NCBI GenBank assembly: GCA_030789695.1
Contig: CM061140.1
Coordinates: forward strand, 82,646,422 to 82,710,421
Direction of reading: 5' to 3'
Source: Scilla litardierei
Taxonomy: Eukaryota > Streptophyta > Magnoliopsida > Asparagales > Asparagaceae
DNA: 64,000 nt
Position 1 is the first letter of the stretch, and the number at the start of each line of letters is the position of its first letter. Below, piece by piece: positions 7,749 through 46,236 of this stretch. A program made the position numbers and the translations under genes. The notes under the pieces are model-generated. The model was given only the letters and a program-made list of their open reading frames with translations. It was not told the DNA's origin and ran no database searches.

Positions 7749-9356
7749 TTTACTTTTAAAATGCTGCAAAAGACACAAAACCGAAGGTTTGATCAAAAAC
7801 ATTGCATTAAAAATTCTTAAAATATAATTCCCACTTGAAATGATAATAGAATATCCCATTTGGATAGTTCTAATTTCAACTCCCACTTGGAATGATATTT
7901 ACAATTTGATAAGTTACTTTCGAAAAATATTGAAGATGTTACCCTAGAATCGGAAAGGTCACTACGTTTCCAATCACCATCTAGAGTAACTTTCAGTATT
8001 TCCCCATCACTTTATCAAATAAAAGTACTCTTATAGTACTTTGCAGCGGAAAAGCGTTTTTGAAAACGTATTTTTCAAAACGTATGAAAAGGTATTTTTC
8101 AAAAAATGTATATTTCAACCTAGTACCCTTATGATACTAGCGAAATATTCGGCATTTCCTGGCCATTTGCCGGGGATAAGCCGTAGCCGTGCCAAGGCCG
8201 GATCCCACCTGAGGGGATTTTTTTTTTCAAACCATCGTCGCCGGCTCCCGTATGGATCCAGGCGCTTCCCCCTTCTATAGGAGAATTTTGCCGCATGACG
8301 ACTGTCGTCCGCCCCGTATGGGCAAGCCATGCATGTCACATTCATGCAAACCCCCCCGCCAAATACAGGGTCAACCGGGGCTCGAAACTGGGCTCAACCG
8401 GGGCTCGGCACTGGCCGTGGCCAGGGCCGGCAGTGGTCGGGCTGGCCTCGGCCTGGCCCTGACCACTGCCAGGGCTGGCTGGCCTGGCCCTAGCCGCCAC
8501 CAGGGCCGGCCAGGGCCCTCTGGCCCTGGCCTGGCCTCGGCCAGAGGCCAGCCAGAGGCTCTGACCTCGGCCAGAAGCCGGCCAGGGCTTGGCCGAGGCC
8601 GGCCAGGGGCTCTGGCCTCGGCCAGAGGTCGGCCAGGCCTGGCCGAGGCCGGCCAGGGGCGCGGGCCTTGGCCAGAGGCCGGCCAGAGGCCGGCTCTGGC
8701 CTGGTCGAGGCCGGCCAAGGCCCCCTGGCCATGGCCGTGGCCTGGCCATGGTCGGCCATGGCCCTTTGGCCTTGGCCGGCCATGGCCCATATGGCCATGG
8801 CCGGCCACCCCCTTGCATGGGTTTGGCCGCACACCCCCCCTGAGGGGTGGCCATGGTGGTTTTTGGCCGTAGCCAACCCCCTCCGCATGGGGAGGGGGGA
8901 TGCATTGCCTCCATGCACCAAAATTATCATCTTCTCCGTTGAGAATAACCACCATCTTCTTCTCCGATGAGACACCCGTTCGTCGATGAAGCACTCGTTC
9001 ATCGAGAAAGTAGTTATTCTCCAATGGCCGTGTGCCAAAATGAAGAAATAACATACTCTAAAGTTCGCAAACTACACGCTCCACATGAAGAGAGTTCACA
9101 TTCCCTATGAATGGAGACTCATCATCCATGAAGAGTGCGAGCTTGACGATATGAACGGTCGGTTCTTCCCGTCACGGAGAGTTCCTGCCATATCCGTAAT
9201 GACAGAAGACCCTAACGTGAAAAGAACAACCGCTGCGTTCTCTCTGTCACAAAGCGTTCCTACCATATCCATAATGGTAGGATACCCATTCGTGAAAAAG
9301 ACAACGCATCATTCATCGGTTCGACGGGGCGACGGTTTGACCGGGGCGAACCCGTA
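7749..9356 (-). other. copia B 5' leader, noncoding
   Basis: About 1.6 kb between gag start and PBS. It contains AT-rich sequence next to gag, two CCCGTATGG-type repeats (about 8248 and 8312), the GGCC array at 8390-8815 and short TCCGATGAGACACC / TTCGTCGATGAAG repeats near 8963-9005. Sequence near 9100-9340 repeats almost exactly at about 45430-45660 in copy C. No coding region is supported. Confidence 0.75.
8390..8815. repeat. GGCC-rich low-complexity array in copia B leader
   Basis: Same class of array as in A. The common unit here is GGCCTCGGCCAGAGGCCGGCC or part of it. It is far more GC-rich than its flanks. All six frames stay open over long stretches, giving spurious Gly/Pro/Ala/Arg-rich translations that I do not call as genes. 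Confidence 0.85.
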
Positions 9357-25326: not shown

Positions 25327-26982
25327 TGATGAGCGTTTATATTCTATATATTCACACATGTCTTCTTTGTGATTTTCCGTTGATTTCCATCGTTTCATAC
25401 CCGTTCTTTCGTGTTTTTTGTATCTTTTCACTTTCTTCATGTTTTTGTGCGAATGCAGGATATTTCCAGTGTTGGGGACGTAAAAAGAAGATATAATGAG
25501 TCCCCAGAGCAACGGGAGGAGTCACGCACTATCCAGAGGGCCAAACGATGAATAAACCCATATTTCAACCCTCAACCGATCGGGTGGACACAGCCACCCG
25601 ATCAGTTGATGCACACGTATCCTACCCGGACGGCAACTAAAGAAGAGTAGCAGCTCACCCGACCGGTTCCGCGATCGGGTGAACTGACGAAACTCTCTGT
25701 CTGAATGTGCTGAATTCCAACCGATCGGGTGACATCTCACCCGATCGGTTCATCTGTAGCCGATTCTCCCAAAAGACGACCCGGAGAGCTGAACCGACGA
25801 CCCGCTCTCTCCAACCGCTCGGGCAGTGCGCCCGGTTGAAGATCTTCAAAGCTCTCATCCGATCGGTTGACTCATCAACCGATCGGGTGGCGATTTTTCT
25901 GCGGGTTTGGACCCGAACCATTAGGGTTTCGAAGTGGGGCTATAAATACACGAGGTTGGCCGACTGAAAGGGGATCTTCCTCAGTTTTTAGGGCTTTTTG
26001 CCCCTTTCTCTTGTGAGGCTTAGGTTAGTTTAGATTAGGTCTTTTGATCAATAAGTCTTGTAATGGATTGAAGATTCAAACTCAAGATAAGTATTTCTTT
26101 CTCTTATTTTCCATTGTTTTATATTGTTTTCATTTTGCTCAATGGTGAACGTTTGTATGTCTTTTCTGTTGCTTGTTTTAATGTTCTTCACCATTGAGTA
26201 GTGTCGATGAACCCTAATATGGGTTAAGGTAGGATTGATGCTTGGGTTGTTTCATTTGGCTTGGTTGTATGGCATGTGTTCGATGAAATGTGTCAATGGG
26301 GATTTCTAGCAATCTGAGTCCAATTCGTATGGCAACACACTAGTTGTGTTGGGCATTGGGGTCCGGTGTCTTGTCCAGTCAAGATCCGCTTCGATGTATT
26401 GCTAGAAAATCACATTCGACCTATTTGGCCATTAAGGTTACGCGAGGGTGTTTTATTGTCATTGGCAGGAAAAAGACCGCCTCTGACCGTCGGGCCAAGG
26501 GGGAATAAACTTGGCGGTTGACCCCCTAGCCATAGCTCATGCCCCTAGCGTATACATCGAGTCCTCGTGCATGGGAACGGCTTGGACAAAATATTGGGAG
26601 TTATCATTGTGGCCTTAATGCTCCCGGTTGCGGTCGGTGTTAATGGACATGGGAATGCCTACCGTCCGAAACCGGGTAGACCTAGCGTACTGGGCATCGA
26701 CAGGAATATCGGGCCCATGGATGCTAGGTACCAACTTTTGGGGCAATGTCTCACCCTGGGTCAAGTCAAATGCCAAGTGTCATGAATGCTCTAGCCCGTG
26801 TTAGCGGGGATTCATTTCATGTCTTTTTATTTCTTTCTTTTATTTCTACACTTCCACCCATATTTCTACACTAGCCATTCAAGCCATCCACCTCACTGAG
26901 TTTGATAAACCCGCACCCTACACTAACCGTGCACTTGCGGTAAAACGACACCGCGCCCAAACCGTAAATGGGGCAACGGTCA
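25327..26982 (+). repeat. element E left LTR
   Basis: Begins TGATGAGCGTTTATATTC and ends GGCAACGGTCA. The CCGATCGG palindrome array is at 25573-25890, TATAAATAC at 25941-25949, and a GC-balanced R/U5 region follows. It is 28 bases shorter than the right LTR, mainly from a deletion near 26866. Confidence 0.92.
25573..25890. promoter_or_regulatory. CCGATCGG palindrome array upstream of TATA box (E left LTR)
   Basis: Several 12-16 base palindromes such as CCAACCGATCGGGTGA. They are often arranged as inverted pairs, for example AACCGATCGGGTGA, CATC, TCACCCGATCGGTT near 25718-25752, and CCGATCGGTTGA, CTCA, TCAACCGATCGG near 25858-25886. The array ends about 50 bases before the TATA box at 25941. 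The right LTR repeats it at 49152-49468. Confidence 0.7.
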
Positions 26983-27182: not shown

Positions 27183-27543
27183 ATGTGGAGATCAAATTTC
27201 GATGCACAGATGGGAGGATACGATCATTATTTAGTTGTGGTTTGTGAGACTTATGGGATGGCGGGGCACATGTATTATGATTGCCCATTTACGCTTGAGA
27301 GCCTCCCCCTACACCAAAGCCAAACATTTTCCCACAACCATTGCCCAAAAACCTCCCATCCATTTCCTCAACCTTATATCCCTCCACCAACACAAGAAGA
27401 ATCAAGCCTCGTGTCTCTCCTTGAAAGTGCCATGTTTAACCAAAGCCAATTCTTACAAAACTTGATGGCACCAATCACCGAGCCTACACCAAGGAGAGGG
27501 GACGAAGGAGAGGATATACCCGCTTTCATGGTTGAGACCACCA
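27183..27543 (+). pseudogene. element E ORF, 5' part (zinc-knuckle-like), interrupted by copia C
   Basis: Starts MWRSNFDAQMGGYDHYL about 180 bases after the PBS. It contains CETYGMAGHMYYDC, which has the spacing of a CCHC zinc knuckle with the second Cys replaced by Tyr. A Pro/His-rich stretch and a segment with FNQSQFLQNLMAPITEP follow. The frame is cut at 27543 by copia C, and the same frame resumes at 46242 after the target duplication, so the ORF was open when C inserted. The knuckle suggests a shortened gag. The rest is unfamiliar. Confidence 0.6.
27539..27543. other. target site duplication of copia C (left copy)
   Basis: CACCA directly before the LTR; the second copy is at 46237-46241. 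Confidence 0.92.
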
Positions 27544-28070
27544 TGTAGGATCCTATCAAAACAATGTTAGGATCGATAAATGAAGTTGAGACTTACGCTT
27601 GCGTACGCGGCACGGTAATCTCGGAACTTCGCCCTCGGATTCGCCACAACGGTCGATACTTCGTCACGGAGGATCGAAGCAGAGTTTCACCGCCTAAATT
27701 TCTAACTAGAAGAGGATTTTAATGGAAGGGAGAAGAAGAACATAAGGATGCCTTATGCAAACTTATGGCATGGAAAGTGTGAATGAATGCCTTACCCTTG
27801 GGTCATATTTATAGGTTTTAGGGGTGGTTATTGTAGGAAATAACTAATTATAAGCTTATTAGCCTATAAAAGCACATTCATTTATCCTCTTCTTCATTCA
27901 CTTATCAAGTGCCTTTATGCACTTATAAAGTGACTTTTTCCACTTATCGAGTGGTCCTTTTCATACGAGAAAAGGTTCCCTTCGTGCACGCCTTCGTGCA
28001 CGCGACATCTGAGGTCTGTATACCCTCATACATCCCCTCATGGGTGTATTCGTGTCGTCCATATCCAACA
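27544..28070 (-). repeat. copia C 3' LTR
   Basis: 527 bp, plus-strand ends TGTAGGATCC and CCATATCCAACA. It differs from the other LTR of C at about ten positions by eye. It carries the family CACTT/AAGTG palindromes near 27900-27955 and a minus-strand TATAAATAT/G box near 27808. Confidence 0.94.
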
Positions 28071-29089
28071 TCTCCCACTCACACTTGAGGGGATTGTAAG
28101 GAAACATCTTTTCCTTCAACTCTTCTGTTTGTCATACCGAGAAATACGCCGTGTGACCGTCATGCGCATAGAGTCCGCTGTTGTGCACTTGTTAGAGATA
28201 CACAACACTCCTCGAGGTGCAAAGTTGAGTAGATCAACGCATGCTTTACCCTAGATTATTTCTTCACATTTCTTATACTTTATATTCAACAATTGAATCC
28301 CATCTGGATTGCAATTGGCTGGCCAGCTTTGAATCTTTAAAGTCCAAATGTGAATGCGAAATTAATCTTCCTCTTCTTGCGATCATTTCGATCTTGACTT
28401 GACTTGCTTTTCTAACATGCCCCGCCGGACCGAATTAATCATAGTCCATAAGTAACATGCTAAGATAGCAATCACCCGGTCAAATCTAAAGGAACCAATT
28501 AGAGTCCATAAGGGTAATGAATTAAGACCCATGTGGTCTTTGGGTCTCACATAATAGTAAACTTATTTACTATTCTAACCCAATGGTCAAAAATGCATAC
28601 GTAGTATGAATACGTATTACAACATCGCTCCTTTCCCAGGGAGTGTATGTCTCAATGATGTTGTAAGGATGATGATCAGACACCACAATGTCTGACTTTG
28701 AGTCCATTTTTCTACTCAAATAATCCTTTGGACTCACATCCCGCATTTAGACAGATAGGATTTCAAAATCCTCTTAGATCTTTTGAAAGCATCCATATGA
28801 TGCAGATCTTTCATACGACCATTTTGTTTAAGTCATGACTCTAAATCATCCGTCTGATGATTTTGACTTCAAACAGGTCTCATCTCTATTATATCCGTCT
28901 GATAGAATAAGGCGGTTGCTCATGTGAGAGAGCCAACCTCAATCTGTCCGACATACTAGAAAGTATAGCTGAGATTTCAAAAATGTACACAAACATTTCT
29001 CAAGAAATTCATATGCAATGTTTGAAAAAGAACTTATTCTTTTATTAAATTTGATCATTTACAGACATGGGAATTTACATTGGTACAAC
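28071..29089 (-). other. copia C polypurine tract and 3' UTR
   Basis: Minus-strand GAGTGGGAGA sits directly at the LTR edge. The following kilobase is nearly identical to 2643-3660 in copy B and has no gene. Confidence 0.82.
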
Positions 29090-32000
29090 TCAGCTCTTAC
29101 GCAATCCTTGAGATGATAAGTGTTTGTAAAACACATCTCTGGGGATCGCCTTCGTGAGTGGATCCGCTATCATCTAATGCGTAGATATGTACCTTATGTC
29201 TACCTTCTTGGTCTTATCATAGTCTTTTGCAAATTTGTAGCGGATATCTATGTGTTTGGTCTTACAATGGAATTTCAGATCTTTGACATAGGCTATAGAT
29301 GCTTGACTGTCGCTGTGTATGGGTACAGCACCTGAGTCACTTGCATTAATTAGCCTGTCTAAGAACTTCTTAAGCCAAACAGCCTCTTGGACTGCCATGC
29401 TAAATGCTACAAACTCGGCTTCCATGGTTGAAAGTGCGATGCAGGATTGTTTCTTGCTACTCCATGATATTGCACCAGATCCGAGTAGAAAAACATATCC
29501 TGAGGTCGATCGTCGCTCATCGAGATCACCCGCCCAATCAACATCAGTGTAGCCTTCGAGCCTCAAGGCATCTCCTTGATAGCATAAAGCAAAGTCTGCA
29601 GTTCCTTTGAGATACCGCATTATCCTCTTAAGCGCTTTCCAGTGTACTTGCCCTGGGTTGGATTGGTAACGACTTACCATTCCAACGGCAAAACAGATAA
29701 CCGGTCTTGTACACATCATAGCGTACATTAGACTACCAACTGCACTGGAATATGGAACTTTTTCCATAATATCCTTCTCTTTTTGGTTCTTCGGACATGA
29801 TTTCAGACATAAATTGTCGCACTTGCTTATTGGAGTATCAATGGACTTGCAGTCCTGCATATTAAAACGTTCTAGAACCTTCTTTATATAAGTCTCCTGT
29901 GAAAGAGAAAGAAGTTTCTTCGAACGATTCCTTGAAATCTTAACTCCAAGGATATATGCGGCTTCTCCCATGTCTTTCATCTCAAAAACTGATGAAAGCC
30001 AAGCCTTGATATCCATCACAAAGCCCTTGTCATTTTCGGCTATTAAAATGTCATCTACATATAGAGACATAATAACAAACTTGTTCTTATTCCTCTTGAT
30101 ATATACACAGTTATCTTCATCAAGCATGGAAAATCCATTTGATAAGACAACCTCTTGAAATCGTATATACCATTGCCTCGAGGATTGTTTAAGACCATAT
30201 ATGGATTTAAGAAGTTTACAAACCTTATGTTCGTTTCCTTCTTTTACAAACCCTGTTGGTTGTTCCATATAGATCTCCTCGTCCAATTCTCCATTGAGAA
30301 AGTCAGTCTTTACATCCATTTGATGTAATTCGAGGTCTAAGCAAGCTACCATTGCCAGAATCAGGCGAATTGAGGTAAAACGAACAACAGGTGAGAAGGT
30401 CTCTTCGTAGTCTATCCCTTCCTGTTGCGTAAAACCTTTCGCGACAAGGCGAGCTTTATATCTGTCTATAGAGCCATCAGCCTTATGCTTGATCTTGAGA
30501 GCTCATTTGTTCCCAATAGCTCTACGTCCTCTGGGTAAGTCCACTAAGTCCCAGACTTGGTTAACTTTCATGGATTCTAATTCCTCTTGCATCGCTTCCA
30601 TCCATTTGTCTTTAATAGGGCAAGATACGGCATGTTTGAAAGTAGCAGGCTCGTCATCTTCTTGTAGTAAAGTCATAAAGGTTTGCGGAAATTCATCCTC
30701 AAATCTTAGAGGAGCCAACCTTGTACGACTACTACGTCGTATTTGAGATTCTTCAAGTCCTTGTTGACTCGAATTTAGATCAATTCTAATATCACTTCCA
30801 CTTGGAATGTTGTTAGAATTGCTCCCACTTGGATCATTATTCCCGTATGGAATAGGATAATCGTCATTCGTATAATCCATTGGTGAAGGTTGAAACGTAT
30901 TTTCGTTTTCACCAAGAATTCTCCCACTCGAATGAGGTAATCCTTCTTGATCATAAATCTCAAATAGAGATAAGTCCTGACTTATCTCGCCCTGTCTTGG
31001 AAACTCGTTTTCCAAGAAAGTGACATCCCTCGACTCAAACTCAATTAGCCCACCATTGTCTTCCTGACTAACAAAAACATAACCTTTGGAGTTTTCTGCG
31101 TATCGTATAAAGATACATTTCCTTCCCCTTGGCCCAAGTTTGCCATACTTATGGGAGGAAATATGTGCGTAGGACGCACAACCCCAAGGTTTCAAAATGT
31201 TTAAGTCAGGAGACCTTTGGTTCCACAACTCATAAGGAGTGGAGCTAACTGATTTCGAGGGTACGCGGTTTAAAATGAAAGCGGCCGTCAATAATGCATC
31301 ACCCCAAAAGGTGATTGACAAGTTAGCTTGCGCCATCATTGAACGGACCATTTCCATTAAAGTCCTATTTCTCCTTTCTGCAACACCGTTTTGTTGAGGA
31401 GTATAAGGCATAGTTACCTGATGTACTATGCCTTTTTCATCACAAATTTCCTTAAAACTTGTTGATTGATATTCACCGCCCCTATCGGTTCGCAAGACCT
31501 TAATCTTGCGGTCTAATTGATTCTCCACTAAACTCATATAGTTTTTAAAGCAAGCCAATGCTTCACTTTTGTGGGATATCAAATAGATATGTCCGAATCG
31601 GGTGAAATCATCAATAAAAGTGATGAAATAGGACTTCCCGCGTCTTTTCTTGACATTCATCGGACCACATATGTCCGAATGGATAAGCTGTAATGGAACC
31701 TCGGCCCTTGTGCCGGTTCCAAACGGCTTGCGACAAGATTTCCCCACTAGGCAATGTTTGCAGGTCGACATTTCAACCTTTGAAACATTGGATAGAAGGC
31801 CACGTTTGGCAAGTCTATCCATACGCGTTGGTCCAATATGACCAAGCCTTACGTGCCAACAAATCACATCAGACTCATAAGTCTTAGAATTTGCAATAAG
31901 GAAATTTTCATTACACGAGGAATCATACATTGTACTCATTACAATAAATCTTTTAAATACAAACCCAGTACCAACAAGAGTATTATTACAACTTAAGTCC

Positions 32001-33193
32001 ACATTACAATCATGAAAAAACCAGTTATAGCCAAGACCCATTAACACGACCACAGAAATTATATTCCTTCGAATATCTGGAGCGAAGAGAACATCATGAA
32101 GTAGGAGAGTGCGGCCGTTGTCCAAGACTAGCTTGCAAGTCCCAACGCCTTTCACTTCAACAGGAGTGTTGTTTCCTACATAGATCCATTTCGTTCCTTG
32201 GGGCATCCGGTGATACTCCACGAAGGACCGTCTGTCCCTTGCTATGTGGTCGGTGGCACCTGAATCAATTATCCAAAATGGATTAGATTCCACAAGAAAT
32301 ATTGAACTAGAAACACATATGTAACTAGCATAATTACAAGTTACCTCGTCGCTTCCACTCGTACACGAACGAGCAAAGTGACCGAGCTTGTTGCACTTGA
32401 AGCACTTGATCTTCTTCAAGTCTTTCTTATTGTGCCACTTCTTGTGTCCACCCCTATGTTTGGGTTTCTTGGTAGACTCAGGTTGCTTTTTACGTTCATT
32501 TGTGAACTTCAAATGATCTTTCCGTTTCTATCCCCCATGTGAGGAACTAGCAACCATGTGCACTTCTGCACTTGGCTTGGCAGTCGCAAGCCGCTCTTCC
32601 TCTAATTCGAGGTGCTTTGAAATGTCGCTGAAGTTCTTGATGCTCTCATTGTGAGTGAGATGCATCTTCATTTGGTCCCACCCATTTGGTAGGGAACGTA
32701 TAACTGCTTGGATTTGTTGCTCATCAGTGAGCACATGACCTGCGTCCTTTAACTCCGAGATAAGATTCGCCATATGTCACAGATGTTTCCCCATGGAATG
32801 ATCTGGACGTTTCTTATATGAATCGAACCTTATAGTTAAGGCGTGAAGTTTGGACACCGATGTGCCACCGAACTTCTCCTCTAGCTTGGACCATATGTCC
32901 ATGGCTAGGTCATGTTCTCGGAAGATGCGCATTATGTCATCGGCCATACTGGACAATAATGTAATGCGGCCTATCTTATTCTTCCGAGACCAAGCATCAA
33001 AAGCTTCCTTGTCTCGCCTGTGTTGGGCCGTAGTGCCCAACTCGGGTTCAATCATGACGTTCTTTAGAGTCTCGAGCACTTCTTGCTCCTCCAGAACGTA
33101 TTGTATCTTAATGGACCAAAGTTTGTAATTATCGCCGTTGAGTTTTTCACCTCTGTTTAACTCAGCGACGATATTCTTTGAAGCGGAAGACAT
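29090..33193 (-). pseudogene. copia C gag-pol polyprotein, four nonsense codons
   Basis: One frame on the minus strand from MSSASKNIVAELN at 33193 to a TGA at 29090. Four in-frame stops interrupt it: TGA at 32777-32779 (CGA in B), TAG at 32528-32530, TGA at 30503-30505 (TGG in B, in RT) and TAG at 29174-29176 (GAG in B, near the RNase H end). There is no frameshift. Domains: Gag; zinc knuckle CFKCNKLGHFARSC (about 32405); protease DSGATDH (about 32265); integrase [32 protein letters not shown] (about 30060), where the residue after ILIA differs from B; RNase H DWAGD and STMEAEF. The catalytic residues seen are intact. Confidence 0.92.
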
Positions 33194-33839
33194 TTTACTT
33201 TTAAAATGCTGTAAAAGACACAAAAAACCGAAGGTTTGATCAAAATTTTGCATTTAAAATTTCTTAAAGAATATAATTCCCACTTGAAGTGATAGAATAT
33301 CCCATTTGGATAGTTCTAATTTCAACTCCCACTTGGAACGACATTTATTAATTTGATAAGTTACTTTCGAAAAATATTGAAGATGTTAATCTAGAATCGG
33401 AAAGGTCACTACGTTTCCAATCACCATCTAGAGTAACTTTCAATATTTCCCCATCACTTTATAAAATAAAAGTACTCGTATAGTACTTCGCAGCGGAAAG
33501 CGTTTTTGAAAACGTATTTTTCAAAACGTTTGAAAACGTATTTTTCAAAAAAAATGTATATTTCAACTTAGTACCCTTATGATACTAGCGAAATATTCAG
33601 CAATCCCTAGCCATTGCTAGGGTATAGCCGTAACCGTGCCAAGGCCGAATCCCCCTTTGTGGGCATTTTCTGCGAGCCATTGTCACCGGCTCCCGTATGG
33701 ATCCAAGCGTTCCCTCCTTCAGGGGAATTTTCCGCAGAGTTTTGCCGTTGGCCCCGTATGGGCTAGCCATGCATGTCTTCATCCATGCAAGCCCCGTATG
33801 GGCATGGCGCCCCTCCTCCCCAAAAAAAACGGGTTGATC

Positions 33840-34253
33840 GGGGCTCGGCACTGGCCGAGGCCATGGCCGGCACTGGCCCTGACAGCGACCAGGGTCAGCC
33901 TGCGGCAGCCCTGGCAGCTGCCAGGGCCGGCCTGCGGCAGCCCTGGCCACTGCCAGGGCCGGCCAGGCCACTGGCCTGGCCTCGCCAGAGGCAGGCCTGG
34001 CCTCGGCCTGAGGCTGGCCAGGCCACTCTGGCCTGGCCTGGCCTCGGCCAGAGGCCGGCCTGGCCTCGGCCAGAGGCCGGCCTGGCCTCGGCCAGAGGCC
34101 GGCCTGGCCCCCTGGCCTGGCCTCGGCCAGGCCACGCTGGCCTGGCCTGGCCTCGGCCAGAGGCCGGCCAGGCCCCCTGGCCTGGCCTGGCCTCGGCCAG
34201 AGGCCAGCCTGGCCTCGGCCAGAGGCCGGCCTGGCCACTCTGGCCTGGCCTGG
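33840..34253. repeat. GGCC-rich array in copia C leader (left of D)
   Basis: The clearest periodic version: CTCGGCCAGAGGCCGGCC with CTGGC recurs many times at about 34000-34240, spaced about 22-25 bases. It continues at 44990-45140 on the far side of element D. Confidence 0.86.
34249..34253. other. target site duplication of element D (left copy)
   Basis: CCTGG before TGACGTGCG; the second copy CCTGG is at 44990-44994 after GTCGGTCA. Confidence 0.9.
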
Positions 34254-34499
34254 TGACGTGCGTTTATATTTCATATATTCACGCACGTTTTCTTTTGTGT
34301 TTCTCCGTGTTTTTCCGCCGTCTTTTATTCGTTTTCTTGTATTTTCTAGTTTTCTTTCACTTTTCTTTGTTTATCCATGATTGCAGGGGATTGACCACGT
34401 AGGGGACGTTTAACGATGATATCCCAAGTCCCCGGAGCAACGGGAGAAGTCACGCGTGATCCAGGGGGTCAAACGTCGAAGAATTCATCTTTCAGCCCC

Positions 34500-34870
34500 T
34501 CACCCGGTCGGTTGGTCATCTCCAACCGATCGGGTGATGCACGCGTGCACCACCCGGTCTCAGCCGGAGCTCACATGGAAGTCACCCGACCGGTTCGCAG
34601 ACCGGTTCAGCGGGGGCCTGTTCTCTGTTTTCTCGAGCAAAATGCCAACCGATCGGGTGACTCTCACCCGATCGGTTCATCTGTAGCTGAAGATGAAGAG
34701 CTGAAGACACGGGCGCCAAACCGATCGCTTCACCCGACGGCTCCAAGATCCAACCGGTCACTCAAGAACTCACCCGACCGGTTCATGTGATCGGGTGAAA
34801 GCTCGCCGTTTTCTGTTATTATTTTGTAACGGATCAACCGATCGGTTGACTTGTCAATCGATCGGTTGAT
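34500..34870. promoter_or_regulatory. CCGATCGG palindrome array upstream of TATA box (D left LTR)
   Basis: About ten sites of the consensus TCAMCCGATCGGKTGA. Paired sites include AACCGATCGGGTGA, CTC, TCACCCGATCGGTT near 34647-34677, and TCAACCGATCGGTTGA, CTTG, TCAATCGATCGGTTGA at about 34834-34869. The array ends ten bases before the TATA box. Each half contains CGGTTG, which fits the plant MYB core CNGTTR. Confidence 0.72.
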
Positions 34871-34879
34871 GCGAGAGTC

Positions 34880-34888
34880 TATAAATAG
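34880..34888 (+). promoter_or_regulatory. TATA box of D LTR
   Basis: TATAAATAG following the palindrome array; the second LTR has it at 44057-44065. Confidence 0.75.
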
Positions 34889-35818
34889 AACCCCTAGGGT
34901 TCCAGAAACGGGGAGCTGCTAGTTTTTTACTGTTTTCTCACTTTGTGACGGCTGTAATTGTTACTCTTTTGTAAGTTTTCAGATCTTTCTCAAATTTTAG
35001 TATTGTCTTATCTACTCTATTACTTCCGCATTGCAATTGTCCGATTATGATTCCAACGGTTAATTTTTATTTAGATCGCTTTTTCATGGATTTTTGTGAG
35101 TAGTTCCCAAATCTGGGATTTTGGTGGAAACCCCTTCGGGGGCTCTTCCCGATGCGTCCATAGGGTTAGGAAATCGATAGGGACTAGGAATCTAACGGTT
35201 ACGCGGGGTGTTTCATTGTCATCGGCGGGAAAAAGACCGCCTTTGACCATTGGGCCAAGGGGGAATAAACTTGGCGGTTGACTCCCTAGCCATAGCTCAC
35301 ACCCATAGCGTAGACGTCGAATCCTAGCACGCGGGAGCGGCAGGATGAGACGTTGGGAGTTATCATTGCAGGCTTAGTGCTCCCGGGATCGATCAGTGTT
35401 AATGGACACGGGAGTGCCCACTGATCGAATCCGGGAAGTCCGGTGTATCATCCTGGGCACCGACCGGAATATCGGGCCCATGGGACGCCGGTACCACTTT
35501 CAGAGGCAACGTCTCACCATTAGACCCTAATCCCGATCGTTATCCATACCCGTAGGCCGTAACGACGAGAGCCGCTCGTTGGAGCGGAAACCAAAGTCCC
35601 GGGTTTATTTCTTTATTGTTCATACCCTTTGTTTCTTTCCGTGACAACCATTTACCGATTCGGGCTAGCTCGCCCCTCGGGGTGATTTAGGTCCTACCTG
35701 ACCCAAGCACAACCTCTCCTCCTTGAGTTCGATATTCCCGCACCCTACACTAACCGTGCACTTGCGGTAAACGACACTGCGCCCACACCGCAGATCGCTG
35801 GGGCGCCGGTCAAGTTTA

Positions 35819-35836
35819 TGGCGCTGTTGCCGGGGA
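35819..35836 (+). promoter_or_regulatory. primer binding site of element D (tRNA-Asp type)
   Basis: TGGCGCTGTTGCCGGGGA, one mismatch (T for C) from the Athila consensus, six bases after the LTR end. Confidence 0.88.
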
Positions 35837-36004
35837 GGCAACGTGCTTGTTATTTTAGGATCTCTTGAACCCTCGTGTCTAGCTCTCATCCCTACCTCGC
35901 GATAATTTTCGCATTCTCCTTTTTCTTTTTATTTTTCTTATTTTTATTTCTTATTTTATCTGTTTCTTTCCCACTTGTCGCTTCACTGGTGTTTGTTGTT
36001 TTTC

Positions 36005-38750
36005 ATGCGCAGGAGTTCAAGAAGTCTCGACGACTTGATTCCCCTCGATCCAGAGATTAACGCCACCCTTAGGCGCTTGGCCGCTGAGAAGCGAAGAAGA
36101 GAGGATCCCGAATCCATGGAGGAGAACACCCCGCCTTACAAGTCCCTGCTGGAGTACTCGATGCCTTCTATCGAGTCCACTTCCGCCATCCGTCCTCCAG
36201 CTATCACGGCCCAAAGCTTTGAGCTGAAGCCGTCTTTGGTGACATGGATCCAGCAGGATCAGTTTGCAGGTGCACCCATGGAGAGCACGATCGAGCACCT
36301 AGACGCCTTCTTGGAGAAATGTGACACCTTCCGGATTAATGGTGTCACGGCAGAGGCTATCCGTCTGAAGCTGTTCCCCTTCTCTTTGCGAGACAAAGCC
36401 AAGCAATGGCTTAGGGGAAAGGACCCCAACACTTTCAACACCTGGGAGAAGCTCTCCAACGCTTTTCTGACGAAGTTCTTTCCTCCGGGGAAGACCATGA
36501 AGTTGAGGAGTGAGATCTCCTCCTTCTCCCAGGCCAGCCACGAGTCCTTGCATGAAGCTTGGACGAGATATAAGGAAATGCAAAGAAGATGCCCTCACCA
36601 TGAGCTTCCGAAGTGGCAGATTATTAATCTGTTCTACAATGGGTTGAGGGATGACCTGAAATCTTCTATGGACGCCGCAGTTGGGGGTTCCTTCATGTCT
36701 AGGAGCGAGGATGATGCCGGACATATTCTGGAAAATATGGCATCCAACAATGAGCGGTGGTGTGACGAGAGAGCCACACCAAGATCCGGGGGTATACACA
36801 GAGTCGAGGACGTCGACAAACTTTCAAGCAAGTTCGACTTGCTTTCGACCCAGATCTCCGCACTAATGGTAGGAGCCGGTGGGGCCGGTACACAGCAAAT
36901 TTCAGCATTAGAATCCGAATTCTTTGGGGAATTCAACGGTGGTGAAATCTCACCACCGTTGGATCAGGCGGGCGCACTATTTTACAACCCCACGGGAAAT
37001 GCGCCGTATCCGCCAAGGACCAATTCCAACCCGGCCTACTCTCCAAACAACCGGAACCACCCAAACTTCAGTTACCGGCCACCATTTCAGCCCTCACCAC
37101 CTCAGCAGCCGCAGCAACAAACTTATCAGCCGGCTAGGCCACAGCAAAGTCAGGTTCAGCAGCAACCATTTCAGTAGCAACCTCAGCAACAATTTTACGC
37201 CCCCAGGAACCAGCAGCCATTCCAGCAGCAGCAGCAGTATGGCCAACAGAGGGCCGTCTCTCCGGTTGAGTCTCTCTTGACTAAATATATTACCAACCAG
37301 GAGAAGATCAACCAAAAGCTGGAAATGGGTCAGTGGACCCTCACGGACCAAGTAACCCAGCTGGGGTTACAAGTGGCGAATCTTTCAAGGTCACAAAACT
37401 AATTGCCGCCACAACCGGAGGTGAACCCGAGGGGAGCAACCCAAACATCGGCACTCGTGCACGAGCACGTAAATGTGTCCGCTATCGTTCTGAGAAGCGG
37501 GACACAAATTCCTACTAGAGTGCCCCTAGCAAACCGGAAGCACCATTGGTCGTTGAGAGACCGATCGGAAAATCAAACGACGCCGGTGCTTCGTCATCAA
37601 ACCCTATGACTCCGGAGGGAGTCTCTGAAGAAGAGAAGAAGAAGGAGGAAGGGAGCTCGAAAGTGTTCAAACCCGTTGTGCCATTTCCACAACGGTTAGC
37701 TCAGGCCAAAATTGATGAGAAATATGGCAAGTTCTTCGCCATGGTAAAGGACCTGAGCCTGCAAATCCCCTTCCTAGAATCAATCGAAACAATCCCCTCC
37801 TATGCGAAATTCCTGAAAGATTTGGTGACTAGAGGGTCTAGAAAAGAGAAAGTAGTATTGACGGCGGAGTGTAGTGCTCTCATCCAGAGGGCAAATCCGC
37901 CGAAACTCAAGGACCCGGGGAGCTTCTCAATTCCTTGCACGATCGGGGCAGTAAAGATTCATCGTGCACTCGTCGATCTCGGAGCGAGTGTTAGTTTGAT
38001 GCCCTTGTCGATGTACAAAAGGATAGGAATGGGAGATTTGGAGCCCACCGGTATGACCCTACAACTAGCTGACCGGTCGGTCAAATATCCGGTGGGAATT
38101 ATGGATGACCTACCCGTCAATGTGAAAGGGGTGCATGTGCCAGTGGACTTTGTAGTCATGGACATGCCTGAAGACGCACACACCCCAATCATCCTGGGAC
38201 GGCCTTTCATGGCCACTGCTGGCGTTTTGATTGATGTAAAGAACGGAAAACTCTCTTTAAACGTCAGCGGAGAAAAAGTTGAGTTTGATCTGGGGTTGTC
38301 CATGAAGTACCCTGATCCCCCTGATGACCCTCGGTGTAATTTGATGGAGATGGAAGAAGAAAAAGCTGTTGAAGAGAGCTCCTGGGAGATTCTCTTAAGA
38401 AACCCCCCCCCCCCCCCGATGACTTGGGGGATTTAGAAGAACAAGACGGCCCCAAGAACAAAGAAGCTGCTGGAAAAGCGAGTGCAACAAGAACGACCCC
38501 TCCCGGGTTCCCCAAGGCTCCTCCTGCGAGGAGAACGGGAAAAGAGCCCATGGACCTCACTAAAGACGAGGTCAGGATCCTAAAGAAGATGGCGGGAAGC
38601 GCCAACACGAAAGAGAAACCCCCGGATCCCAAGAACAAGGAGAGGGTAGTTGAGCAAATATTTCTCCAGCCGCTGACTACTCCAAGGGCCTTCAGCTCCA
38701 ATGAAGAAGAGATGCCGAACTTCGGACATCACCCGTATCAACCACCGTGA
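36005..38750 (+). pseudogene. Athila-type gag-protease of element D, with stops and frameshifts
   Basis: Starts MRRSSRSLDDLIPLDPE at 36005; upstream in-frame residues have no Gag features. The Retrotrans_gag region lies at about residues 75-240: FELKPSLVTWIQQDQFAG, LKLFPFSLRDKAKQWLRG, FFPPGKTMKLRSEISSF. A Gln/Pro-rich tail ends in a TAG at 37175-37177, where the flanks suggest a glutamine codon. The same frame continues past it to a TAA at 37400-37402. A frame change near 37540-37600 follows. The protease part has ALVDLGASVSLMPLSM, whose DLGAS replaces the usual DTG/DSG, as is typical of Athila, and HTPIILGRPFMATAGVLID. A poly-C run at 38403-38418 shifts the frame, and a Lys-rich tail runs to 38750. 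No RT follows. Confidence 0.87.
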
Positions 38751-39755
38751 ACATCTCTTGCGGGCGTCGAGCCAACGACGTTAAACAAGTGCGCTTCATG
38801 GGAGGCAACCCATGTTCTAAACTTTCTCCCCATTTTTTAGCGTTATTTTTGACTTTATTTTATCTATTTTTATAAATAAAATCAGCCGCGAGAACAGCCG
38901 TTCGGGGACTTAGACAAATCTGTTGGTTTTTGCAGGAACAAAGCCCCAACCGATCGGTTGATAACTCACCCGATCGGTTGGGATGTATCTGATACATGTC
39001 GAGATCTGTCCCCATATGACCCGATCGGTTGAAGAATGAAGAGACCGGGTGACAGACCGGGTGAGATGGGGAGAACTCTCGGAAATTTTTGGCGAATATC
39101 AACCGATCGGTTGAGTTCGAGCGCGATCGGTTGATGAGACCGTGTGAGCAGCCCTAAGTTCTCGGGAAAATGAGTGGAGCGGCCAACCGATCGGTTGACA
39201 AGTCAACCGACCGGTTCGCCTGTAGCATTTCTTCGGCAAGGATTTCGACCTAACCGTCAACTGATCGGGTGACAAGTCACCCGATCGGTTCGACTTAAAA
39301 CCCTATATAAACCCCCCGACACCCGCTCGTTTTCATCCTCGCCCGATCACCAAAATCGCCGTCGTTTCGCCTTCCTCTCCTCCCCAACGACCGATTCTCA
39401 CTCCCCCACGTCCTATACTCCTCTATTACTCCCTCTCTCACCTCCTCCATCAATCCCTCCATCATCTACACCCTCTCTCTCCTTCCATTTCAAATTTCTG
39501 ACCTAATTTCCCCCCAAACAACCCCATTTCGAAAAGTCTTGCCGGAAGAGATCGCCGCGGCTCCACGCTACTCTCGTTGAACAGTGTGGGGACGTCTACG
39601 AGCAAGCTCTGCCATTCCGCTTGGGTACACTCGCTCCTAAGCTTATTATTTATATATTTGCCCTATATATTGTGCTTGCTCGTTTGCTTGTGCTAGTGTG
39701 CATCCACTGTTTTTGTTTTTGTTTTTTGCACTCATTCATACATGCACTCTCGCAC
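38751..39755 (+). promoter_or_regulatory. D spacer with internal palindrome array and TATA box upstream of env-like ORF
   Basis: After the Athila spacer motif (38769-38815), CCGATCGG-type palindromes recur at 38946-39292, for example TCAACCGATCGGTTGA-like sites near 39101 and 39182, and an inverted pair GATCGGGTGA, CAAG, TCACCCGATCGG near 39263-39288. TATATAAA follows at 39304-39311, about 10 bases later. A pyrimidine-rich stretch of about 400 bases then leads to the ATG at 39756. Order and spacing copy the LTR promoter. I infer an internal promoter for the env-like ORF. Confidence 0.6.
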
Positions 39756-40789
39756 ATGGCTAAGGATAAGGACAAGGGTAAGGGGATTATGCAGGAGGAG
39801 GAACCGTCTCGAAAGAGACGAAAGCAAACACGCCCCCCTTCTCGTACACGAGCACTTACACTTGGCCCTCCCCCGCCTGTTATCCCCCCTGTGGACCCAA
39901 TGTTGGGCCCACATGGGTATATCTTAAAAACCAGGAGCACAAGGATTTTTACCGTAGGCTCGATGCTCGAGGGCATCTATCTACTAAGTTCCCGCACACA
40001 CAAACGCTTGTCGATCTCGGTGTCTTCACCGAGGTCGAATCTCTTTTCGCTAACTTAGGATGGTTGGCCTTTCTTAATGCATCTGCCATATCCTACCCGG
40101 CACTCACACTCGAATTTCTCTCTACACTTGTTTGGGAGTCCGGGTCGATCATTAAATTCAGGGTGCGTAACCGTAGTGTCACCACAAATCTGAACACGAT
40201 TAACGATATATTTGGTTTCCCCAATCTTGGGGATGATTCCATCCGACACTATGGGTACACGCCCGAGTTTGATGTCGATCAATTCTGGTTCCACCTCACG
40301 ATGTTCCGTGACTATCCCCGAGGAAGGGCCAAGGCCTCTTCCATCATTCATCCCGTGTTTCGTTTGGCCCACCGGATCATTTCATCTGCATTTTTTCCTA
40401 GGGACGAGTCCGGCACCGTGACTATCCCTGACCTTTTTATCCTTTGGGCCATGACTTTTCCTTTTTTCCGGGATGATGATGGAATTAGATTCAGGGCCCC
40501 TACCGTCCCCATCCATGGCGGCGATTGGCTTGTTTACAAGCTACTCGAGATCAGCCGGACCGGTAAGGGGAAGTTTTGTTGTGGGGGCATTATTACGATC
40601 ATCTGCTCTCACGCCCAATTCAATATTCCCATCCCCAATAATCTTCCAGCTGCCGCAGGACCCTCACAGCTTGATATTGATGTCATGCGGCACATCCACA
40701 TGATTAGACCCCACTCTGATGGCCGCTTCATCTTCAATTATGGCCACCCCCAGCCCCTTACACCATTCTCCCCAACCCCGCTCGCATGA
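39756..40789 (+). pseudogene. Athila env-like / ORF1-family protein of D (frameshifted)
   Basis: Starts MAKDKDKGKGIMQEEEPS with a Lys/Arg cluster (RKRRKQ) that could act as a nuclear localisation signal. After GPHGYIL the frame breaks at an A-run near 39928-39935 and resumes with HKDFYRRLDARGHLSTKFP, YPALTLEFLSTLVWE, FHLTMFRDYPRGRAK and LFILWAMTFPFFRDDDG, ending at a TGA at 40787-40789. This style matches the plant ATHILA ORF-1 and related putative transposon protein families, for which no function is established. It occupies the env-like position after pol. I see no signal peptide or clear membrane segment, so env is only a positional label. Confidence 0.65.
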
Positions 40790-41775
40790 CCATTGCTCTC
40801 GTGGGAGATTGGACCTTCCCACCTGATCCCGACTTCTTAGCGGGGTTGAATCTTCCTTTCCTTCCCGCAGATGCACGCAGACCACCATCCCTTGCCGCCC
40901 ACTTAGGCAAGCAGGATATCCCTGCGTCTAGGGGAGACTTAGGGGCTGGCCCGAGTCGTCCTGTTTTTGCTCCGGGACCGATCACGTCTGAGCACCTCTT
41001 CGCGGCCATTTCTGGCCTTGTCTCCTGTGCCGGCATGACCACTGCCGCCGGCACCTCTTCGACCTTACCTGGCGGCACCACCTCTGCCTCGCGTCAGTCT
41101 ACATCTTTTGGTCGCCGTCAGGTATCTGCCCATCTAGGTCTTGAGAGGGAGGTCGCTGCCCTTCGTGAGCTCGCCATGTCCTCTGCTTCCTCGGACCCAT
41201 CACCATCCTCCTTTCTTACTCACCCACATTTCCTCGCACTTGAGAGGAACGTGGCTGCCATTCTTCGCCTTCTCACTCATATCCACGGACCACCTCCACC
41301 TTCACCCCCTCCACCTTCACCACCCCAGCGATCTCCCCCTCCACCCACCCACACATCCCCACATTCATCGCCCCCCTCACCACATTCTTCTCCTCCCTCT
41401 TCTAATCTCATCCCGGCATCCACTTCACCCCTCCCAACCACTTCCATCGCACCCACGCTACCTCCTCCCTCCTCCTCCGTCACTCCATACGTGCGCCGGA
41501 GGAAATTGCCGGTGCGCTCCAGATCCCTCCCACCACCTCCCACCACCGTCACCACCGCATCTTCTTCCCCCATTTCTATTCCTCTCACCACCGCCTTCAT
41601 CGCCTTCCTACCACCACCCCCTACCCCCACCGACACTCCTCCCATTGTTCACACCACCGCTGCATCTATTCCTCCACCTCATTCCACACTTCTCCGCACA
41701 CCCCCAGCCTCCCCCGACCACCCAATCCCAGCATCTTCCAAGGAGGGCGAGGACTCACCTTCTCCTGCTTACTGA
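40786..41775 (+). CDS. proline-rich second ORF of element D
   Basis: 329 codons from the ATG at 40786, which overlaps the preceding stop as ATGA. The N-terminal half (GDWTFPPDPDFLAGLNLPFL, LEREVAALRELAMSS, FLALERNVAAILRLLTHIH) looks like a linker plus a short heptad-like helical segment. The C-terminal half is very rich in Pro, Ser and Thr, like an extensin-type low-complexity tail. In related elements this would be the C-terminal part of the ORF before it, so the overlap may be a frameshift lesion. Alternatively the ATGA is used for re-initiation. Function unknown. Confidence 0.5.
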   Translation: MTIALVGDWTFPPDPDFLAGLNLPFLPADARRPPSLAAHLGKQDIPASRGDLGAGPSRPVFAPGPITSEHLFAAISGLVSCAGMTTAAGTSSTLPGGTTSASRQSTSFGRRQVSAHLGLEREVAALRELAMSSASSDPSPSSFLTHPHFLALERNVAAILRLLTHIHGPPPPSPPPPSPPQRSPPPPTHTSPHSSPPSPHSSPPSSNLIPASTSPLPTTSIAPTLPPPSSSVTPYVRRRKLPVRSRSLPPPPTTVTTASSSPISIPLTTAFIAFLPPPPTPTDTPPIVHTTAASIPPPHSTLLRTPPASPDHPIPASSKEGEDSPSPAY

Positions 41776-43417
41776 TTTCACTATGTTTGTTTTTGACTAC
41801 CCCTTGCATATCTCTGCATTTCATTGATCATATCATTTTGCTAGCACTGTCATGTTTAGCTTGGGGACGTCTATTTTGGCGTGCTGTCGTGTTTTGTTTG
41901 TTTTTCTCATTTTTATGTGTGTGCTTGCTTTTCATTTTTTGAGTGTCGTGTCGTGTGGTTTTATTTTTATTTTTATTTTCGTGTCGTTTGATTTTGATTT
42001 TGATCTTTCTCTCTTTTTCAGTTTCATCTATGTGTTTTCCTCGTTTTCATTTCTTTTTGTGTCAGTGCGTATTCCCCCCCCCCCCCCCACTTTCATTGCC
42101 CTCCCGTACTCACTCATATTGCATTGAGGGCAATGCAAACTTCAGCTTGGGGGAGTCGCACTGTGTGCATCGTTTGAGTCCTTCTTTTTCGTTTTTTGTG
42201 TCGTTTTCATTGTGTTTTTATTTTTTATTTTCTTCTTTTTAGCTCTTTCTCCTAGAGATGAATCCTATGATGAATCGCCACAAAGTCACACACACCTAGC
42301 ATTGCATCGATAATCACACTCACTAACCCTAGGATTTCGAGTCCTCTTGCATTTCACGCATTGTGGGTCCACTTAGCTTTCTTGTGAGTCGTGCGTCGTG
42401 CCTGTCTATTTGGTGTGCTTCTGCTTTGTGATTTTACTTTATATACCTGTCCAGGAATGACCCCTAGATTATCATGCTTCGATTTGAATATGCGGTATTT
42501 GTTTCTACTATATGCATGCTATATTTATATCGTATATTTCAATTCGCATGCGTCGGAATTCCACAACTAAGGACTAGGATAACCCATTTAGCCTATGCTT
42601 TATTTAGCGAGAATAGTTTCCTTTGCCCGAGTGTTTAGATTTCGACTTCTTTTTTGTTTTACTTGGTGCAAATCCCCTCGTCGTGTACCGTTCTCCCACT
42701 TGGGAGAGTGCACATGTGTATAGCCAAAAACCCAAAAATCCAAAAAAAAAGAGAAAAGAAAAGAAAAACCCAAAAAGAAAAGAAAAGAAAAATTTTGTAT
42801 AGCCAAAAAACCAAAAAAATACAAATGCCCAAAACCCAAAAAAAAAAATTTCCGTGTGAATATTTTTTCCTACTTGCCGAGAATAAAGGGAAGGCGAGAA
42901 TTTGCACCAAGTGTTCTACTCCACATCATCTCAACCCCCTTCGTTATCGAAAACACTTGGCTTAGGAACTTTTTAGCTAGTATCTAGGCTATAGTGGCGT
43001 GATTTCCTTAACCCTAGTTATGGAGTCCCCGATGCATGATACGCTTCTATTCTTACTCTTCTAATGCATGCTTGAACTTATATTCGCCGCTTAATTCAAT
43101 TCGAATCTATATTTGGGTCATATCTTGGATTTGTGTATATCGAGCCTCATAGCACATTGTAGAAAGCGACACCATTTGCTAGTACACGACCACACTCACT
43201 CGCGCTTCACCGTGTGGGCCCATGACACTTATTTGGACTCGTTTTCCTAGGTTTAATGGTGTGATTTGGCGCTTGCTTGCTTGGTGTGTCGTTTTTGATT
43301 TTGGTGGCTCTGACGGACGATCTAGGATTTAGAGTTTTCTTTTTCTTTCTTCCTCTCTATTTTTCCCTTCCGAGCTCCTACTCTCACTCGTCTTCCTCGA
43401 GGACGAGGAAGAGTTCA
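41776..43417 (+). other. element D 3' UTR, no gene, conserved with element E
   Basis: Contains T-rich sequence, a poly-C run near 42076-42088, the hairpin TTGCATT, GAGGGC, AATGCAA at 42119-42138, a 16-base palindrome TCTCCCACTTGGGAGA at 42692-42707 and an A-rich block at 42723-42850. Complementary arms ACTTGGTGCAAAT (42661-42673) and ATTTGCACCAAGT (42900-42912) enclose the last two. The same series occurs in E at 47526-48390. Copies of AGCTTGGGGA occur at 41858 and 42144 besides the true polypurine tract at 43418. Confidence 0.72.
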
Positions 43418-43427
43418 GCTTGGGGGA
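43418..43427 (+). promoter_or_regulatory. polypurine tract of element D
   Basis: AGCTTGGGGGA three bases before the right LTR start TGACGTGCG. Position and composition fit the plus-strand primer site. Confidence 0.75.
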
Positions 43428-43430
43428 TTT

Positions 43431-44989
43431 TGACGTGCGTTTATATTTCATATATTCACGCACGTTTTCTTTTGTGTTTCTCCGTGTTTTTCCGCCGTCT
43501 TTTATTTGTTTTCTTGTATTTTCTCGTTTTCTTTCACTTTTCTTTGTTTATCCATGATTGCAGGGGATTGACCACGTAGGGGACGTTTAACGATGATATC
43601 CCAAGTCCCTGAAGCAACGGGAGAAGTCACGCGTGATCCAGGGGGTCAAACGTCGAAGAATTCATCTTTCAACCCCTCACCCGGTCGGTTGGTCATCTCC
43701 AACCGATCGGGTGATGCACGCGTGCACCACCCGGTCTCAGCCGGAGCTCACATGGAAGTCACCCGACCGGTTCGCAGACCGGTTCAGCGGGGGCCTGTTC
43801 TCTGTTTTCTCGAGCAAAATGCCAATCGATCGGGTGACTCTCACCCGATCGGTTCATCTGTAGCTGAAGATGAAGAGCTGAAGACACGGGCGCCAAACCG
43901 ATCGCTTCACCCGACGGCTCCAAGATCCAACCGGTCACTCAAGAACTCACCCGACCGGTTCATGTGATCGGGTGAAAGCTCGCCGTTTTCTGTTATTATT
44001 TTGTAACGGATCAACCGATCGGTTGACTTTTCAACCGATCGGTTGATGCGAGAGTCTATAAATAGAACCCCTAGGGTTCCAGAAACGGGGAGCTGCTAGT
44101 TTTTTACTGTTTTCTCACTTTGTGACGGCTGTAATTGTTACTCTTTTGTAAGTTTTCAGATCTTTCTCAAATTTTAGTATTGTCTTATCTACTCTATTAC
44201 TTCCGCATTGTAATTGTCCGATTATGATTCCAACGGTTAATTTTTATTTAGATCGCTTTTTCATGGATTTTTGTGAGTAGTTCCCAAATCTGGGATTTTG
44301 GTGGAAACCCCTTCGGGGGCTCTTCCCGATGCGTTCATAGGGTTAGGAAATCGATAGGGACTAGGAATCTAACGGTTACGCGGGGTGTTTCATTGTCATC
44401 GGCGGGAAAAAGACCGCCTTTGACCGTTGGGCCAAGGGGGAATAAACTTGGCGGTTGACTCCCTAGCCATAGCTCACACCCATAGCGTAGACGTCGAATC
44501 CTAGCACGCGGGAGCGACAGGATGAGACGTTGGGAGTTATCATTGCGGGCTTAGTGCTCCCGGGATCGATCAGTGTTAATGGACACGGGAGTGCCCACTG
44601 ATCGAATCCAGGAAGTCCGGTGTATCATCCTGGGCACCGACCGGAATATCGGGCCCATGGGATGCCGGTACCACTTTCAGAGGCAACGTCTCACCATTAG
44701 ACACTAATCCCGATCGTTATCCATACCCGTAGGCCGTAACGGCGAGAGCCGCTCGTTGGAGCGGAAACCAAAGTCCCAGGTTTATTTCTTTATTGTTCAT
44801 ACCCTTTGTTTCTTTCCGTGACAACCATTTACCGATTCGGGCTAGCTCGCCCCTCGGGGTGATTTAGGTCTTACCTGACCCAAGCACAACCTTGCCTCCC
44901 TGAGTTCGATATTCCCGCACCCTACAATAACCGTGCACTTGCGGTAAACGACACCGCGCCCACACCGCAGATCGCTGGGGCGTCGGTCA
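43431..44989 (+). repeat. element D right LTR
   Basis: 1,559 bp, same length as the left LTR. Differences seen by eye are nearly all single-base, most of them transitions. Palindrome array at about 43677-44046, TATAAATAG at 44057-44065. Confidence 0.94.
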
Positions 44990-45694
44990 CCTGGCCTCGG
45001 CCAGAGGCCGGCCTGGCCTCGGCCAGAGGTCGGCCAGGCCCCCTGGCCTGGCCTGGCCTCAGCCAGAGGCCGGCCATGGCCGGCCATGGCCATTTTGGCC
45101 TTGGCCGGCCATGGCCCTTTGGCCATGGCCGGCCTCCCCCATTCACGGGGTTGGCCGCACATCCCCACCGGAGGGGGTGGCCGTGGTGGTGTTCATCGTC
45201 ATTGGCCGTAGCCAACCCCCTCCGCATGGGGAGGGAGATGCATTGCCTCCATTGCCCATATGGCTATAGATTTCATGCACCAAAATTCATCTTCCCCGAT
45301 GGGAATAACCACCATCTTCTTCTCCGGTGAAGCACCCGTTCGTCGAGGAAGTAGTTATCCTCCAATGGCCGTGCGCCAAAAAAAATAACCCACTTCAAGA
45401 ATTCGTAAACTACGCACTCCACATGAAGAGAGCGCCCATTCCCTATGAATGGAGACTCAGCATCCATGAAGAGAGCGATTTTGACGATATGAACGGTCGG
45501 TTCTTCCCATCACGGAGAGTTCCTGCCATATCTGTAATGGTAGGAGACCCTAACGTGAAAAGAACAACCGCTGCGTTCTCTCTGTCACGAAGCGTTCCTA
45601 CCATATCCATAATGGTAGGATACCCATTCGTGAAAAAGACAACGACTCGTTCATAGTTTCGACGGGGCGACGGTCTGACCGGAGCGAATCCGTA
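44990..45694 (-). other. copia C 5' leader, PBS-side part
   Basis: Resumes with the CCTGG target duplication and the GGCC array to about 45140. It continues with repeats like those of the B leader (TTCTTCTCCGGTGAAGCACCC, ATCCATAATGGTAGGATACCC). No gene. Confidence 0.78.
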
Positions 45695-45708
45695 TGGCTC
45701 TGATACCA
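45695..45708 (-). promoter_or_regulatory. primer binding site of copia C
   Basis: Minus strand TGGTATCAGAGCCA, exact initiator tRNA-Met PBS, one base from the LTR at 45710. Confidence 0.93.
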
Positions 45709-45709
45709 A

Positions 45710-46236
45710 TGTAGGATCCTGTCAAAACAACGTTAGGATCGATAAATGAAGTTGAGACTTACGCTTGCGTACGCGGCACGGTAATCTCGGAACTTCGCCC
45801 TCGGATTCGCCAGAACGGTCGATACTTCGTCACGGAGGATCGAAGCAGAGTTTCACCGCCTAAATCTCTAACTAGAAGAGGATTTTAATGGAAGGGAGAA
45901 GAAGAACATAAGGATGCCTTATGCAAACTTATGGCATGGCAAGTGTGAATGAATGCCTTACCCTTGGGTCCTATTTATAGGTTTTAGGGGTGGTTATTGT
46001 AGGAAATAACCAATTATAAGCTTATTAGTCTATAAAAGCACATTCATTTATCCTCTTCTTCATTCACTTATCAAGTGCCTTTATGCACTTATAAAGTGAC
46101 TTTTTCCACTTATCGAGTGGTCCTTTTCACACGAGAAAAGGTTCCCTTCGTGCACGCCTTCGTGCACGCGACATCTGAGGTTCGTATACCCTCATACATC
46201 CCCTCATGGGTGTATTCGTGTCGTCCATATCCAACA
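45710..46236 (-). repeat. copia C 5' LTR
   Basis: 527 bp, matching 27544-28070. TATA box on the minus strand near 45974 and palindromes near 46065-46120. Confidence 0.94.

Follow-up and report, generated by a model that had tools for sequence, protein, structure and literature searches.

An Athila-like retroelement with a candidate internal promoter built in the palindrome grammar of its LTRs

Foamy viruses have an internal TATA promoter for their downstream genes, with a regulator that is common to this promoter and the LTR. How the env-like ORFs of plant retrotransposons are expressed is unsettled; the proposals comprise stop suppression, splicing, and an internal promoter (PMC2829016, PMC3414828). 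In Sireviruses (Ty1/copia), palindromes with a CGG-CCG core are found in the LTRs before the TATA box and again before ENV (Bousios et al. 2010, PMC2829016). According to the available parts of that paper, these box arrays are CpG rich, the linker boxes occur only in ENV-bearing elements (77 of 79 before ENV), and an internal ENV promoter was proposed and supported but not conclusively identified by the authors. For Athila6A, transcriptional start sites, ORFs, and an intron were defined from structure and RNA data, and an ENV ORF promoter, or internal promoter region, is named (Panda et al. 2016, PMC4977677). An earlier sequence-only reading of the DNA analyzed here knew of no such promoter in Athila elements; this claim of novelty fails in part, being contradicted by the Athila6A report and preceded by the Sirevirus palindromes that stand before TATA and env. 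Maize Grande gene23 is likewise served by a promoter of its own (Gomez-Orte et al. 2013, cited in PMC7264820 and PMC11963269). Pol-less elements with gag and env are common among Arabidopsis Athila (Marco and Marin 2008, PMC2410132); the EST table of that paper contains 89 entries in env rows (two repeats included), 30 in gag rows, and no pol row, and pol was the source of none of the 48 ESTs assigned to elements that contain it, a skew toward env that could have causes other than a promoter. The available parts of PMC3276544, PMC11963269, and PMC12844716 contain nothing on an env promoter in Athila. Among the matches listed in our literature searches, which covered titles and the beginnings of abstracts (most subscription papers being outside coverage), there is no report of a palindrome array common to the LTR and the pre-env region of a Ty3/gypsy element.

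The window, that is, the whole 64-kb stretch of DNA that was analyzed, contains an LTR retroelement at 34254-44989, henceforth element D, with the following parts:

34254 to 35812, plus strand: 5' LTR of 1559 bp; the target-site duplication CCTGG lies on both sides of the element
35819 to 35836, plus strand: primer binding site TGGCGCTGTTGCCGGGGA, TGGCGC type
35906 to 37177, plus strand: gag ORF (PF03732, E 3.5e-23)
37519 to 38436, plus strand: aspartic protease ORF (PF13650, E 2.1e-6)
38373 to 38750, plus strand: ORF overlapping the protease ORF in another frame
39782 to 40786, plus strand: PF03078 ATHILA ORF-1 domain (E 7.5e-27)
43431 to 44989, plus strand: 3' LTR, with the same palindrome array as the 5' LTR at 43677-44046 and a TATA box at 44057

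The two LTRs are 98.4% identical (25 differences), and the primer binding site is of a type that we take to be tRNA-Asp. A tRNA-Asp site is given for Diaspora and Calypso, which are relatives (PMC1142308). We found an ATHILA ORF 3' of the gag part together with the PF03732 gag, the aspartic protease, the tRNA-Asp-type primer binding site, a 5-bp target-site duplication, and TG..CA LTRs, although gag, protease, primer binding site type, duplication, and LTR ends also occur in other Ty3/gypsy lineages. Scanning 21 of the 31 stop-to-stop pieces of at least 80 aa (the complete plus-strand set of 15, and 6 of the 16 minus-strand pieces) gave no Pfam match to reverse transcriptase or integrase, and as far as scanned element D is a pol-less element with gag and an env-like ORF. 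By its domains, D is classed as an Athila-like element of Ty3/gypsy type; we did not file it as a Sirevirus because no pol was found and because the PF03732 gag and PF03078 point to Ty3/gypsy. From its position, the PF03078 ORF is assumed to be the "env" of the Athila papers. None of 4227 known RNA families reached its gathering score in 34200-45050. A run of 15 C at 38403-38417 lies at the frame change between the ORFs 37519-38436 and 38373-38750, and CATGGGAGGCAACCCATG, a hairpin-like motif, lies 3' of the protease ORF at 38797-38814. Hairpin motifs of this kind are presumably a feature of the pol end in Athila-type elements, and a pattern related to CATGGGAGGCAACCCATG had no match in viral_contigs.

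Between the protease part and the ATHILA ORF lies a region whose order of elements is like that of the LTR promoters, and the features of both are as follows:

34500 to 34869, plus strand: palindrome array of the D 5' LTR, 10 boxes at 12/16 or better, upstream of the TATA box in that LTR
34880 to 34887, plus strand: D LTR TATA box TATAAATA
38916 to 38936, plus strand: splice-acceptor-like sequence TTTTTGCAG/GA, the slash standing before the first exon base at 38936, 10 nt before the internal array
38946 to 39292, plus strand: internal palindrome array, ten 16-bp boxes near TCAACCGATCGGTTGA
39304 to 39311, plus strand: internal TATA box TATATAAA
39335 to 39755, plus strand: putative leader, with its start placed at the A at 39335 in TTTTCATC

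The coordinates of the boxes, of TATATAAA, and of the ATG at 39756 agree with those of the sequence-only reading. We defined a box as a 16-mer fitting TCA[AC]CCGATCGG[GT]TGA at 12 or more of its 16 positions; this pattern was drawn up after the arrays had been seen, which makes the test post hoc, but the margin is wide, the internal array having 10 boxes against a mean of 0.13 and a maximum of 3 in 1000 first-order Markov simulations of the region. Eight of these boxes score 13-16/16 and two (39037 and 39119) just 12/16. They are arranged in five doublets (38946+38966, 39017+39037, 39099+39119, 39183+39203, and 39257+39277), each 20 bp from start to start, and the two weak boxes are the second members of the second and third doublets. 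The successive start-to-start distances are 20, 51, 20, 62, 20, 64, 20, 54, and 20, and when ten boxes are placed at random, at least five of the nine gaps are equal with a frequency of 2.5e-5 (again post hoc). The 20-bp spacing corresponds to about two DNA turns, a regularity absent from the sequence-only reading. Across the 64-kb window there are 54 box matches, 47 of which belong to five arrays (those of the LTR pairs of C and D, and the internal array; element C is described below) and 7 lie elsewhere, compared with 2-10 matches in each of 20 simulated windows; as the LTRs of each pair are copies of each other, the five amount to only three separate arrays, two of which stand in related LTRs (C and D). 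The array had been said to be absent from the gag-protease part of D, which is correct for boxes at 12/16, although the 8-mer CCGATCGG occurs there once (37561) and CCGGTCGG at 38073. The CpG observed/expected ratio is 1.33 in the internal array and 1.22 in the LTR array, against 0.70-0.80 in gag, protease, and the ATHILA ORF, a level that may be analogous to the CpG islands reported at Sirevirus boxes. The 16-mer box matches 11 stretches of viral_contigs, which we take for chance, and the doublet pattern matches none.

Two other readings of the array region were tried and rejected. Although TTGAC/GTCAA words reach a higher density in the array (3 in 381 bp), just a single one of them is a complete W-box, and a W-box reading was dropped. 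A bidirectional promoter was considered on account of a TATAAA on the minus strand, 72 bp ahead of the internal array; CTATAWA, however, is missing there, and within 150 bp before either type of LTR array the minus strand has neither TATAAA nor CTATAWA. This TATAAA and an AATAAA at 38875 lie shortly 5' of the array (38866-38880), as a possible antisense TATA and a possible poly(A) signal.

The stretch 27533-46236, which carries D and which, from its repeats, is a putative nested element, splits what reads as one further LTR element, element C (5' LTR from 25327, 3' LTR end at 50589, AGCTC on both sides). In the remaining interior of C (~3.2 kb) there is no box, and the three plus-strand pieces of at least 90 aa that were scanned have no Pfam match, PF03078 included. 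An element with neither internal array nor PF03078 match agrees with the Sirevirus rule, one absence being weak evidence. The window also contains two 6.8-kb stretches (2091-8802 and 27544-34250) that are 92% identical, and part of the second flanks D; a minus-strand ORF in part of 27544-34250 is presumably a copia-like gag.

Palindromes followed by a TATA box are common to the internal region and to the LTRs of C and D. This order had already been noted for the D LTR by the sequence-only reading, and it holds: the CTATA word begins 11 bp past the last box in the internal region and 10 bp past it in the D LTRs, compared with 50 bp in the C LTRs. The TATA box lies 358 bp from the first box in the internal region, against 380 bp in the D LTR and 369 bp in the C 5' LTR (368 bp in the 3' copy). 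With the boxes masked, however, 22 of 200 shuffles reach the score of the internal region against the D LTR and 47 of 200 reach its score against the C LTR, whereas none of 200 does so for the D LTR against the C LTR, which are clearly homologous. The claim that the array is an internal copy of the LTR promoter is thus unsupported as a statement of descent, since outside the boxes the array resembles neither LTR significantly. The array shares the grammar of the LTR; the putative internal promoter could be a duplicate of old date whose spacers have drifted, or the same boxes could have been assembled independently. Alternatively, the array could be a relic, the remnant of an LTR after recombination or nested insertion; the same boxes and an array length similar to that of the LTRs would fit this, and recombination among Athila families has been reported (PMC2410132). 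We nevertheless regard a relic as improbable, given the lack of significant similarity outside the boxes to the two LTR families compared and a site before the env-like ORF that matches the place of the Sirevirus boxes and, by name, that of the Athila6A promoter. Doublets in the LTR arrays are looser (19-22 bp) and are accompanied by pairs at 12-13 bp. In the LTR arrays 25572-25890 and 34500-34869, which are related copies, doublet partners complement each other better than boxes across doublets, and the LTR doublets look as if each were one inverted repeat of about 36 bp.

The plus strand of the 64 kb has 12 CTATAWA words, and five of these start 10-50 bp past the five arrays. Past the last internal box, CTATATAAA is followed by a pyrimidine-rich stretch, of which 39335-39520 (186 nt) is 75% pyrimidine and contains no ATG. 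A pyrimidine-purine start candidate, TTTTCATC, lies 31 nt past the TATA box, although such a dinucleotide is common. The putative leader has one ATG (39742) against 3.5 expected (P 0.11, a weak depletion), and a second TATA-like word at 39663 is nearer the ATG at 39756. A TATA box with clustered upstream sites is the anatomy of a Pol II TATA promoter, as far as sequence anatomy goes.

Downstream, the ORF is spread over three frames, the PF03078 domain being in the second and the others as follows:

39756 to 40055, plus strand: frame from the ATG at 39756, 100 codons, stop at 40056
40720 to 41772, plus strand: proline-rich ORF in the third frame, with no Pfam match above the cut-off

An env-like ORF had been said to begin at the ATG at 39756. 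The ATG is there, but its frame has only these 100 codons, and the conserved domain is in another frame. An intact env gene is therefore rejected for this copy, and because the ORF is split, D itself would give a truncated product at most. Hydropathy is modest in the ORF pieces, whose best windows reach at most 1.49 over 19 residues; a strongly hydrophobic stretch at 39642-39728, upstream in the ATG frame, probably reflects no more than a T-rich composition, another frame scoring almost as high (2.77 and 2.64). A single-sequence fold of the piece 39782-40786 was useless (mean pLDDT 33.3). Among 932 word-sharing candidates none was a relative at E 0.001 in a protein search that reaches only relatives with common 5-residue words, and ORF patterns matched 2 stretches of viral_contigs and 15 of genome_contigs, none of which was confirmed as a relative.

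We consider that 38946-39335 is probably a Pol II promoter inside this Athila-like pol-less element, from which a separate mRNA for the PF03078 ORF would be made. A dimeric palindrome-binding factor, host or element encoded, would occupy pairs of sites two DNA turns apart and drive initiation near 39335, directed by the TATA box. The resulting short mRNA would carry the PF03078 ORF and end in the 3' LTR; the LTR promoter would use the same sites, so that both promoters would answer to the same factor. The sequence-only reading had likewise proposed a second promoter for the downstream ORF, and this appears to be the best reading of the anatomy, but the ORF it would serve is broken in this copy. 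Also counting against a promoter are the good acceptor-like site before the array, the TATA-like word nearer the ATG, the weak second box in two of the five doublets, and the single copy of the internal region.

The acceptor-like site bears on a different explanation, in which the mRNA for the ORF is a spliced form of the LTR transcript, with 38936 or a site in the leader as acceptor, and the array is a transcription factor platform or enhancer and no promoter itself. The site at 38936 is the top-scoring of all AG sites in 35813-40000 (by a crude consensus score), splicing has been reported for Bagy-2 (PMC7264820), and acceptors have been predicted for BAGY2 and Athila (PMC2829016). However, an RNA spliced through 38936 would carry the seven ATGs of the array and strong hairpins (fold z -9.1) 5' of the ORF, which we count in favor of the promoter; in addition, no GT donor matches 8 of the 9 letters of the consensus in 34880-39756, and the TATA box 11 bp past the array would be a coincidence. 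We judge splicing to be rather unlikely. Another explanation is that the array is no promoter but gives rise to hairpin RNA or is targeted epigenetically (siRNA, methylation). It folds far better than 100 shuffles (the same z of -9.1), but palindromes fold by construction. Doublet partners complement each other better than boxes across doublets for 11 doublets (strict P 0.0024, which is too small because the C and D LTR doublets are related), but the five internal doublets taken by themselves do not reach significance (P 0.12). As the TATA box would also be left unexplained, we hold this explanation to be very improbable.

The promoter reading that we favor places D beside several described systems. 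Like foamy viruses, D would have, by analogy, an internal TATA promoter and a regulator common with the LTR. A full two-promoter circuit as in foamy viruses is a highly speculative extension of this analogy: the internal promoter would supply the ATHILA ORF product, a dimeric DNA-binding activator of the phased doublets that switches on its own promoter and the LTR, the grammar having arisen independently in copia Sireviruses and gypsy Athila. Because the same code stands at the LTR promoter and at the candidate internal one in D, a common regulator of both is directly testable. In Grande, an accessory gene between pol and the 3' LTR has its own internal promoter, as the env-like ORF of D would; Grande gene23 is antisense and belongs to a different lineage. 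With the pol-less Athila families, D shares the structure LTR, gag, and env-like ORF with no pol found; those of Marco and Marin, in contrast, are from Arabidopsis, and the word promoter is absent from the main text of PMC2410132. Athila6A is of the same lineage and has an internal promoter for the env ORF, but the available parts of PMC4977677 mention neither palindromes nor a vocabulary common with the LTR. The arrangement of an internal env promoter thus appears to have been glimpsed already in other plant retrotransposons, and D appears to be a clear new example; as far as our searches show, what is new is that a Ty3/gypsy-type element has a single box vocabulary for its LTR promoter and its putative internal one, together with the 20-bp doublets. 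D offers a concrete, testable candidate for an internal promoter whose paired palindromes follow the code of the LTR, and its lineage differs from the Sireviruses in which such boxes were described. As in Sireviruses, palindromic boxes lie in the LTR before the TATA box and again before the env-like ORF; unlike the copia Sireviruses, D is of Athila type with no pol found, the box core is CCG..CGG, a TATA box follows the internal array, and the boxes form 20-bp doublets. The boxes of Sireviruses and of D suggest convergence on one design.
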